NCBI RefSeq assembly: GCF_018588585.1
Contig: NZ_JAEUFG010000006.1
Span: 117,577-181,576 of the forward strand
DNA length: 64,000 nucleotides
Origin: Bacillus sp. SM2101
GTDB lineage: Bacteria; Bacillota; Bacilli; Bacillales; SM2101
Direction of reading: 5' to 3'
Shown here: positions 2,701 through 18,530 of the stretch, piece by piece
How the letters are laid out: every line of letters begins with the position of its first letter
Numbering within the stretch: position 1 is the stretch's first letter
Notes under the pieces: model-generated
What the model was told of the DNA's origin: nothing
Seen by the model: the letters and a program-made list of their open reading frames with translations, nothing else
Databases searched by the model: none
Translations under genes and position numbers: made by a program

Positions 2701-3216
2701 TTACTTTTCATTATTTGGTGCTAATATTAAAAACATGCTACGCCCTTCCATTTTGGGCTTTGATTCAACTACACTTATATCATTACAAGCTTCTGAAAAG
2801 CGATCTAATACACGTTGACCAATTTCTTTATGAGTAATTGCTCGCCCTTTAAAACGAATTGACGCCTTAACTTTGTCTCCTTTTTCAAGGAACTTACGAG
2901 CGTTACGAAGTTTTGTGTTAAAGTCATGCTCTTCAATAGTTGGACTTAAGCGAACTTCTTTCAGACTAATAACTTTTTGATTCTTGCGTGCTTCTTTATC
3001 TTTTTTCTGTTGTTCAAAACGGAATTTTCCATAGTCCATAATACGACAAACTGGCGGTTTCGCGTTTGGAGCAACTAAAACTAAATCAAGATTCGCTCTG
3101 GCTGCAATTTCTAATGCTTCATGCTTAGATTTAATTCCAAGCTGATCACCATCTTTACCAATTAAACGAACTTCGCGAGCACGTATGCTCTCATTGACGA
3201 ACATATCCTTGCTAAT
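2701..3216 (-). CDS. infC: translation initiation factor IF-3 (AUU start)
   Basis: The 171-residue product begins [20 protein letters not shown], the normal IF-3 N-terminal domain. The C-terminal domain ends in [11 protein letters not shown]-3 binds the 30S subunit, prevents premature 50S joining and discriminates against non-AUG starts. The start is the ATT at 3216-3214, because GGAGGTGG (3223-3230) sits at ideal spacing and homology begins exactly there. A frame reaching 3321 has no ribosome binding site and no family similarity. An AUU start is the known autoregulatory feature of infC. The gene is first in infC-rpmI-rplT. Confidence 0.95.
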
Positions 3217-14330: not shown

Positions 14331-14408
14331 TGCATGAGCTCCTTCCGATTTAGCTACAGTAGTATATGGAAGAAGCCCATCCAAAGTTCAAAAAGAAGCT
14401 CTATGTTT

Positions 14409-14945
14409 TTTTACAGGAGGTTTTATCGCAACGATTGTTGCTTGTCGCACAAAAAATAAACACGTATTTGGTAAAATTTCGTGGCATCTTTTCTACTGAT
14501 AAAATTACTGAGTTCTCATAAAACTCATCATGATGTCCATTTTTAGTAAAAATAACAAAATACTTACGAAAAGAGCCTTTTAAAGCTGTTTTTTCGCATC
14601 GCTTGTTGCTTGTCCCACAAAAAATAAACACGTATTTGGTAAGATTTCGTGGCATTTTTTCTATTGGTAAAATTACTGAGTTCTCAAACTCATCATGATG
14701 TCCATTTTTAGTAAAAATAACAAAATACTTACGAAAAGAGCCTTTTACAGCTGTTTTTTCGCATCAATTGTTGCTTGTCGCACAAAAAATAAACACGTAT
14801 TTGGTAAGATTTCGTGGCATCTTTTCTACTATATATTGACGACTGTTGCGTGTAACTGCATCTTAATCTTCTATTTTACGAACAATAACCTTTTTGAAAA
14901 AGAGCCTTTTGTACAGGGCTGTTTTCACTGTTGATTGCATGTAAA
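14409..14945 (+). repeat. tandem array of repeat family A (MITE-like)
   Basis: Three consecutive units at about 14409-14581, 14582-14746 and 14747-14910, plus a fourth left end from about 14914. The word GTTGCTTGTC recurs at 14437, 14605 and 14770, giving periods of 168 and 165 bases. Units 1 and 2 are nearly identical along their whole length; unit 3 diverges in its second half. The left end reads about AAAGGCTGTTTTCGCA and the right end TACGAAAAGAGCCTTTT. These are imperfect terminal inverted repeats of about 14 bases. Small frames on both strands inside it are artefacts. Confidence 0.85.
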
Positions 14946-14982: not shown

Positions 14983-15855
14983 TCAACTTTTTGCTTGGCA
15001 GTTAGGGCAATAAAATGATGAACGCTGATCTATTTTTAGGTTTTCAATAGAACTTCCACATTCAGGACAAAAGTCTTTATTATAAACCATATGCAGCTCT
15101 TGGAATGTTCCTTTTTTCCCTTCGGAATTTACATAATCTCTTATAGATGAGCCTCCAAGTTTTATTGCAAGTTCAAACGTTTCTTTAATATGCCCCAATA
15201 ATTCTAACAGCTTTTCATCTGAAACCTCCCCAACAGATGTTAATGGGTTTAGCTTAGCTTTATAAAGACATTCGGATGCGTATATATTTCCCACACCTTG
15301 AATGACATTTGGTTGCATAATTACACGTTTTATCGGTTTGTTAATGAAAGCTTTATTTCTTATTATTTCCAAAAAAATCCTTGGAGTATCTTCAGAAGCT
15401 GGATCGGGACCAACCTCTTGAAGAGGTCGATAAGCGGTATACTCTTGTTTATTCAAAGCGCCCATCCATCCAAATCTCCTTTGATCTGAATAAACCATTA
15501 ATGACTTGTCATTTAATTTAAATATGATATGAACATGTTTTCGATAATTTGGTGCAATTTCATCTAAATCGTTTACATGAAAAATAGCACCAGTCATGCC
15601 AAGATGGGTGACTAAGTATAAGGTGGAAGTATCAGCTTGATTTAAATTGAAAATTAAGTACTTACCTTTCCTTTCAAGCTTTTCTATACTTCCTCCTTCT
15701 AGACGTTGAGAGAATGTTTCAACTTCTTGCCTTCCTATTTTTTTAAAAGGCATAGTAATCTTCGGATGTAGAACAGATACCTCTGAAATTATTTTACCTA
15801 GTACTTTAGGCTCTATTGAGTTTAAAACTTGTTGTACTTCTGGTCCTTCCGGGAT
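14983..15855 (-). CDS. mutM: formamidopyrimidine-DNA glycosylase (Fpg/MutM), apparent AUC start
   Basis: The bifunctional glycosylase/AP lyase removes 8-oxoguanine. The frame upstream of the first ATG (15753) encodes the family N-terminus PEGPEVQQVL, including the catalytic Pro and Glu, so the gene starts earlier. An in-frame stop lies just upstream. The only codon directly before the Pro is ATC (15855-15853), eight bases after AAGGAGGAG (15862-15870). No ATG, GTG or TTG is available. Residue RKGKYLIF fits the catalytic Lys region. The C-terminal zinc finger has CPECG and CPNC. The product is 290 residues. It lies in the polA operon. Confidence 0.93.
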   Translation of the reverse strand: MPEGPEVQQVLNSIEPKVLGKIISEVSVLHPKITMPFKKIGRQEVETFSQRLEGGSIEKLERKGKYLIFNLNQADTSTLYLVTHLGMTGAIFHVNDLDEIAPNYRKHVHIIFKLNDKSLMVYSDQRRFGWMGALNKQEYTAYRPLQEVGPDPASEDTPRIFLEIIRNKAFINKPIKRVIMQPNVIQGVGNIYASECLYKAKLNPLTSVGEVSDEKLLELLGHIKETFELAIKLGGSSIRDYVNSEGKKGTFQELHMVYNKDFCPECGSSIENLKIDQRSSFYCPNCQAKS

Positions 15856-15896
15856 GAGGAACTCCTCCTTTCAACCATTCCCTATATGCTATACCA

Positions 15897-18530
15897 CTAC
15901 TTTGCATCATACCATGTAGGGCCATATGAGTAATCAACCTTCAGTGGAACAGTTAATTCTACTGCACTCTCCATCACATCAGGAACAAGTTGTTTCAGTA
16001 TTTCTATTTCTTCTTGTGGTGCTTCAAAGATTAATTCATCATGTACTTGAAGTAACAGCTTTGCTGCTAAGCCCTCTTGGTGTATGCGATTAGCCATTTT
16101 GATCATCGCCAATTTAATAATATCGGCTGCACTTCCTTGTATTGGTGTGTTCATTGCAGTTCGTTCAGCAAAACTTCTCACATTAAAATTCCTACTCGTT
16201 ATTTCAGGAATATAACGCCTTCTTTGCAAAAGGGTTGATACATAACCTCTTTGTTTTGCCTCTTGAATGATATCATCCATATAGTTTTTCACACCAGGGA
16301 AGCTATCAAAGTAACGCTGGATAAAGTTTGCTGCCTCTTTTCTAGTAATCCCAAGATTTTGTGACAAGCCATAATCACTGATTCCATAAACAATTCCAAA
16401 ATTCACAGCTTTTGCTTGCCTACGCATGTTTGATGTTATATCATTTTCATTTACATGAAACACATCCATCGCAGTTTTTGTATGTATATCTAAATCTTGA
16501 TTAAATGCAGTAATTAAATTAGCATCATTTGCAATATGTGCTAACACTCTTAATTCAATTTGTGAGTAATCTGCAGCAAAGATGACCCAGTCCTCTTTAG
16601 AAGGAACAAAAGCCTGCCTAATTTTGCGTCCTTCCTCCAATCTTATTGGTATATTTTGTAAGTTAGGGTCAATTGAACTCAATCTCCCTGTCTGTGTTAA
16701 AACTTGATTAAATCGAGTATGGATTTTGGATGTATCCTTATGTACAACCTTTAATAATCCTTCAATATATGTTGATTTTAGTTTACCTAATTGTCGATAA
16801 TGTAAAATTTTATCAATAATATTGTGTTTAGATTTTAGTTTCTCAAGAACGTCAGCAGAAGTAGAGTAGCCAGTTTTCGTCTTCTTAATAACAGGTAAGT
16901 TTAATTTCTCAAATAAAATAACACCTAATTGTTTAGGAGAATTAATATTAAAGCTCTCTCCAGCTAGTTCATATATTGCATTCTCTAAGTTAGATAATTG
17001 CTTTGATAGCTCATCTCCCATTAGTTTAAGCTTGTCTACGTTCACATTTACACCGATTTCTTCCATTTTTGCTAATATAGAAGATAGTGGCATTTCTAAA
17101 TTCAGTAACAAATCTAATTGTTCATTTTCTTGCAAATCATTTATAAGTTGATCCTTCATCTTATATAATGCATTTGCTTTACGTATGAGGTGTTCCATCA
17201 ATTGTTGTTGCTCGGGAATTTTTCTCTTGGCACCCTTTCCATAAACTTGTTCATCAGTTAATATATCTGACATACCATAACGTTTTGCTATACTTGTGAC
17301 CTCATCATTCGTGTCGGATGGATCTAATATATAGGAAGCAATAATGGTATCGAAATCAATTCCTGCTAATTGTATGCCATTCCAATGTAAGGAAACCATT
17401 GCTTTTTTTCCATCAAAAACAGTTTTCTTCATTTCCTCATTTTTTGCCCAGTCTTTAAATATATTAGAATTTACTGCTACTTCTGTAGGAATAAAATAGC
17501 GGCCATTCGTATTTTCAATTGCAATGCCTAAAATATCTCCCAAATGATAGTTTTCTTCTAATACCTCAACAACTAATGAACAATGATCAGCTAGCATATC
17601 TTGAGTTACCTCAGTAGCAACTGTAAATTCTATTTCGTTAAACTCCTCCTGATTTACCTCCTCAGAGTAGCCAAGTTTTGCTAACATTGATTCAAAACCT
17701 AAATCTTTATAAATGCCACTTACTTTTTCTTTGTCTATACCCTTAAAGTTAGCATCATTAACAGTAATACTAAGAGGAGCTTCACAGTTAATAGTTGCTA
17801 ACTCTTTACTCAATATTGCAAGCTCTGTATGATCAGTTAATTTTTCCTTTAACTTTTTTCCACTTACTTGATCAATTGATGCAAGCACTTGTTCCACTGT
17901 TCCAAATTCTTTTAAGAGCTTTAATGCAGTCTTTTCTCCAACTCCTGGTACTCCAGGAATATTATCTGAACTATCACCCATTAAACCTTTTAAATCAATG
18001 ATTTGAGCAGGTTTAATACCATATTTTTCTGCAATAAACTCAGGTGTATACGTGTCAACATCAGTAATACCCTTACGAGTAATATTAACAGTAATATTAC
18101 TTGTAGAAAGCTGAGTTAAATCTTTATCACCTGTGATGACTTTGACATCAAAACCATCCAGTTCAGCTTGTTTTGATAAAGTGCCAATTATATCGTCTGC
18201 TTCATAATTTTCGAGTTCATAGCGAGTAATTTTATAGGCATCTAATAGTTCTCTAATAAATGGAAATTGTTCTGATAACTCCGGAGGAGTTTTTTGCCTT
18301 CCTCCCTTATATTCACTATAAGTTTCATGCCTGAAAGTCGTTTTTCCAGCATCGAATGCTACTAACATATGTGTTGGTTTTTCTTCATCTATAATTTTAT
18401 TTAACATCATCGTAAAACCATAAATTGCATTTGTATGTATCCCTTTATTGTTGCTCAGTAAAGGTAGAGCAAAAAATGCACGGTATGCGATACTGTTTCC
18501 ATCTATCAACACTAACTTGTTTTTATCCAA
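15897..18530 (-). CDS. polA: DNA polymerase I
   Basis: The 877-residue family A polymerase has an N-terminal 5'-3' exonuclease/FEN domain (about 1-290, with VAFDAGKTTFRHE and GDKDLTQL). A 3'-5' exonuclease-like domain (about 300-465) lacks the acidic catalytic residues, as in Bacillus enzymes. The polymerase domain has motif A DYSQIELRVLAHIA, O-helix RRQAKAVNFGIVYG and motif C VHDELIFE. It acts in Okazaki fragment maturation and repair. The start is TTG with GAGGAGGGC upstream. It leads the polA-mutM-ytaF-coaE set. Confidence 0.97.
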   Translation of the reverse strand: MDKNKLVLIDGNSIAYRAFFALPLLSNNKGIHTNAIYGFTMMLNKIIDEEKPTHMLVAFDAGKTTFRHETYSEYKGGRQKTPPELSEQFPFIRELLDAYKITRYELENYEADDIIGTLSKQAELDGFDVKVITGDKDLTQLSTSNITVNITRKGITDVDTYTPEFIAEKYGIKPAQIIDLKGLMGDSSDNIPGVPGVGEKTALKLLKEFGTVEQVLASIDQVSGKKLKEKLTDHTELAILSKELATINCEAPLSITVNDANFKGIDKEKVSGIYKDLGFESMLAKLGYSEEVNQEEFNEIEFTVATEVTQDMLADHCSLVVEVLEENYHLGDILGIAIENTNGRYFIPTEVAVNSNIFKDWAKNEEMKKTVFDGKKAMVSLHWNGIQLAGIDFDTIIASYILDPSDTNDEVTSIAKRYGMSDILTDEQVYGKGAKRKIPEQQQLMEHLIRKANALYKMKDQLINDLQENEQLDLLLNLEMPLSSILAKMEEIGVNVNVDKLKLMGDELSKQLSNLENAIYELAGESFNINSPKQLGVILFEKLNLPVIKKTKTGYSTSADVLEKLKSKHNIIDKILHYRQLGKLKSTYIEGLLKVVHKDTSKIHTRFNQVLTQTGRLSSIDPNLQNIPIRLEEGRKIRQAFVPSKEDWVIFAADYSQIELRVLAHIANDANLITAFNQDLDIHTKTAMDVFHVNENDITSNMRRQAKAVNFGIVYGISDYGLSQNLGITRKEAANFIQRYFDSFPGVKNYMDDIIQEAKQRGYVSTLLQRRRYIPEITSRNFNVRSFAERTAMNTPIQGSAADIIKLAMIKMANRIHQEGLAAKLLLQVHDELIFEAPQEEIEILKQLVPDVMESAVELTVPLKVDYSYGPTWYDAK

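Follow-up and report, generated by a model that had tools for sequence, protein, structure and literature searches.

The mutM locus and its start region

The window, a 64,000-nucleotide stretch of a Bacillus sp. SM2101 contig (NZ_JAEUFG010000006.1, positions 117,577 to 181,576 of the forward strand), carries on its minus strand the gene pair polA–mutM. Farther along lies infC, the gene for IF3. We list below the features on which the analysis draws, in window coordinates.

14983–15855, minus strand: mutM (fpg) read from the ATC through the stop codon, 290 amino acids; frame open from 15855, assigned by family models
15853–15855, minus strand: ATC, putative mutM start codon, aligned with the MutM initiator Met; same codon in the sister species
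15862–15870, minus strand: strong mutM SD AAGGAGGAG, or GAAAGGAGG including the two preceding bases, from the predicted anti-SD duplex
15856–15861, minus strand: TTCCTC, six-base spacer from the SD to the ATC, by sequence check
15871–15873, minus strand: in-frame TGA upstream of the mutM ATC, also in the sister species
15835–15852, minus strand: PEGPEV (CCG GAA GGA CCA GAA GTA), the catalytic N-terminus with Pro and Glu, from the sequence and the alignment with PDB 1l1t
15751–15753, minus strand: first in-frame ATG of mutM, 34 codons after the ATC; product would be without the catalytic N-terminus
15897–18530, minus strand: polA, an 877-amino-acid ORF directly upstream of mutM, from the ORF list
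3214–3216, minus strand: ATT, putative infC (IF3) start, from the IF3 family match; GGAGGTGGCTACTT precedes the ATT in both species

Two NCBIfam models match the ATC-initiated frame from profile position 1, PRK01103 with 245 bits (cut-off 212, E 9e-73) and TIGR00577 with 241 bits (cut-off 203, E 1e-71), and the Pfam Fapy N-terminal, H2TH (PF06831) and zinc-finger (PF06827) domains were found in the protein, the latter two above their cut-offs. When aligned with the MutM of PDB 1l1t, the ATC codon sits at the initiator Met, with IPEGPEV facing MPELPEV. Judged by these matches, the gene is mutM, encoding a predicted bifunctional DNA glycosylase of the Fpg type. It belongs to the same protein family as other Bacillota MutM/Fpg proteins (PDB 1l1t and relatives), whose genes likewise lie directly downstream of polA. 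The protein reads PEGPEV in place of the PELPEV of its relatives, is 16 residues longer than 1l1t and shares at most about 40% identity with the other MutMs of the order. No second Fpg-family gene was found in the genome, a 144-contig draft, so the single mutM has no evident substitute.

The polA stop codon, TAG, occupies 15899–15897 on the minus strand, and the mutM ATC follows 41 bases further on. From the in-frame TGA to the Pro the codons are AAG GAG GAG TTC CTC ATC, and because of this TGA the mutM start is confined to these six codons; between it and 15753 a sequence check found no ATG, GTG or TTG in the mutM frame. Our preliminary description of this DNA had reported an intact PEGPEV upstream of the first ATG, directly after an ATC and behind an in-frame stop without a canonical start, and all of this stands. 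The eight-base distance that it gave between the SD and the ATC holds from the AAGGAGG core, but from AAGGAGGAG the distance is six. The N-terminal Pro and Glu are catalytic in Fpg chemistry, and the warning that an automatic start at 15753 would remove them was well founded, as both are among the 34 residues that would be lost.

Neither of the assemblies compared here yielded the 3' end of the 16S rRNA, and duplex energies therefore assume the standard anti-SD: on this basis the predicted mutM SD duplex reaches −15.6 kcal/mol, where the best sites of other genes have a median of −10.9 kcal/mol, and an SD as strong occurs in only 5 of 142 syntenic genes. No stable or unusual RNA fold was found around the mutM start (z about +1); SD and spacer could pair in a weak hairpin, but one no better than shuffled sequences give.

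Conservation of the start region and alternative readings

We compared the locus with that of a second genome from the genus, assembled separately. The MutM of this sister species is 94% identical to the present one, with no difference in the stop, SD, spacer, ATC or the codons that follow; the codon in a close relative, which the preliminary description had proposed to look up, is thus ATC as well. In the 33 codons from the ATC to the first ATG, comparison of the two species shows 5 synonymous substitutions and 0 nonsynonymous ones. In tests that ignore transition bias and take sites as independent, the chance under neutrality that all five N-terminal changes would be synonymous is about 8e-4 (binomial), and the whole gene has a dN of 0.026 and a dS of 0.182 (Fisher p about 2e-12). 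This substitution pattern indicates that, in each of the two species, the codons preceding 15753 are translated and selected. Taken together, the sequence comparisons argue strongly that the ATC is a real inherited feature and not a sequencing error or a recent or dead allele.

Loss of the start codon, leaving mutM dead or dying and the lineage a mutator, would agree with the weakness of AUC starts and with the presence of only one Fpg-family gene. We nevertheless consider it very unlikely, since purifying selection on the whole of mutM, strong since the species split and extending to the N-terminal codons, argues against a loss of repair; moreover, the gene contains no internal stops or frameshifts, its catalytic residues and H2TH and zinc-finger domains are intact, and mutY is also present in the genome.

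The preliminary description had also offered two alternatives, an error in sequencing and a real mutation of ATG to ATC, here taken as recent and peculiar to this strain. ATC is one base from ATG and the genome is a draft, as an error of sequencing or assembly over a real ATG start would have it, but both suggestions are contradicted by the presence of this ATC in a separately assembled species at a synonymous distance of about 0.18 substitutions per site (about 18% synonymous divergence), and we give an error almost no weight. A MutM beginning at 15753, on the first canonical codon and the one that automatic annotation would pick, is just as hard to credit: the ATG there is without an SD (−1.8 kcal/mol), the 34 codons preceding it match MutM and show the substitution pattern of coding sequence, and the product would lack the catalytic Pro. 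Entry into mutM by ribosomal frameshifting from an upstream ATG, such as the one at ATGGTTGAAAGG, which overlaps the SD and is out of frame with mutM, or by readthrough of polA, is exceedingly improbable, because an extra T in the sister species leaves that ATG with a two-codon ORF (ATG GTT TGA), two stops close the mutM frame upstream, and polA is in a different frame from mutM.

Start codons in syntenic genes and in relatives

A survey of starts covered 142 genes in 166 kb over which the two genomes are syntenic. With 39 codons between its upstream stop and its first canonical start, mutM had by far the clearest coding signature before the first ATG, GTG or TTG. The survey misses infC because it is blind to non-standard starts that have a canonical codon upstream. 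In another syntenic ORF (L062; G000:C6:53100-54899, minus strand), the 14 codons ahead of the first canonical start carry 3 synonymous and 0 nonsynonymous changes, and by this pattern the start of the ORF might also be misplaced or non-standard.

Within the order, a pattern resembling the mutM start was matched in 392 of 397 genomes. The same 397 genomes gave 28 matches with ATH at the start position, two of which, both of this genus, are mutM; among the remaining matches examined by retrieved sequence there was no other ATH-start mutM. A few ATH matches were judged by sequence and position only; one of them has an in-frame stop, and in each of the genomes concerned the mutM start pattern is matched elsewhere as well. 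As only the two of this genus proved to be mutM among the examined matches, we rejected the idea of AUH starts as a wider class among mutM genes of the order. Relatives of MutM with start codons read, about 32–40% identical to it, use ATG, GTG or TTG, and a single scan of genome contigs returned only distant MutMs with ATG. Because the relatives use these codons, the most plausible history is that the ATC arose once, on the branch leading to the genus; as only two species carry it, it counts as one evolutionary event.

In a sample of 299 genomes from the phylum, one further true mutM is preceded by ATT (genome G608, locus L089). At position 1501 on the plus strand, this distant mutM (31% identity) has ATT at the Met position with GGGGTGAT upstream, and an in-frame ATG lies nine codons upstream of the ATT. 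A base error in G608 is possible, since the family mates of L089 use ATG, GTG or TTG. Barring this uncertain ATT, all Bacillota MutM/Fpg relatives whose start was read begin with ATG, GTG or TTG, whereas the present gene has ATC. A further match from the phylum sample, L088, was rejected as another protein.

Proposed initiation at AUC and its consequences

We propose, with a probability of about 0.88, that mutM is translated from an AUC fixed in the genus, which would be read by fMet-tRNA with the help of the very strong SD, the Met then being removed to expose the Pro. The AUC start put forward in the preliminary description is supported by family models that fill from residue 1 and by the same arrangement in the sister species. 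At initiation, the SD, 6–8 bases upstream, would hold the 30S subunit over the AUC, and ordinary fMet-tRNA (anticodon CAU) would pair with its first two bases and mismatch the third. A search for initiator anticodon loops recovered two in each genome, all CAU, and an altered initiator tRNA was rejected on that count; since both genomes have CAU anticodons, AUC would need third-base mismatch reading. Absence of IF3 was also rejected as a cause, its gene being intact in both species.

The product would begin fMet-Pro, from which deformylase and methionine aminopeptidase would expose the Pro as the catalytic N-terminus. Because of this processing the enzyme itself would be normal and only its amount lower. 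Were the AUC decoded as Ile, the Pro would not come first and an inactive enzyme would be expected. MutM could thus act as an internal check, active only if the initiator Met is removed and Pro comes first, and an active MutM would imply that the AUC is read as fMet.

To our knowledge, natural, conserved AUC starts are very rare, and the open literature searched, with incomplete coverage, yielded no mutM with an AUC start. Near-cognate starts with strong SDs are already known, as is a fixed AUC in another core Bacillota gene. In Listeria, the ATC start of rnhC is fixed and has been verified experimentally, and translation is lowered by ATA and ATT starts (PMC13068326). Like mutM, rnhC of Listeria monocytogenes encodes a conserved nucleic-acid enzyme with an AUC start fixed across a Bacillota lineage, but it is a different gene and its start was confirmed by experiment, whereas that of mutM is deduced from sequence. 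In the genome studied here, rnhC seems to have a TTG start. In S. aureus, weak starts were measured by Ribo-Ret and reporters for cvfC1 (AUU), ccpN (AUA) and citZ (AUA), and in poor medium the output of AUA/AUU starts with extended SDs was about 10% of that from AUG (PMC13009471), figures that concern AUA and AUU, whereas mutM has AUC. The combination of a weak start and an extended SD in cvfC1 and ccpN resembles that of mutM. By analogy with these S. aureus and Listeria near-cognate starts, the AUC probably lowers MutM output.

A comparable case lies within the window. As the putative ATT start of infC follows GGAGGTGGCTACTT in both species, the lineage appears already to initiate at a near-cognate codon behind a strong SD. 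Four codons downstream of this ATT, here and in the sister species, there is an ATG. An infC with AUU or AUA shares with mutM the near-cognate, third-base-mismatch start and the strong SD; its start codon serves IF3 autoregulation, a loop that is a feature of infC and would be hypothetical for mutM. IF3 may discriminate against the mutM AUC as it does at infC. It is conceivable, though unlikely, that the AUC is a selected throttle tying 8-oxoguanine repair to the level of IF3 or to growth state; if so, the mutation rate of the genus would vary with the fidelity of translation initiation, in the way that infC is controlled. The present mutM offers a case in which the dose of DNA repair may be set by the choice of start codon.

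The locus also bears on annotation, since gene finders can strip a catalytic N-terminus, as at 15753 in mutM. Between mutM and the next gene, at 14420–14865 of the window, lie direct repeats of about 165 bases in roughly three copies, 75–97% alike, which yield spurious ORFs such as that at 14401–14655.
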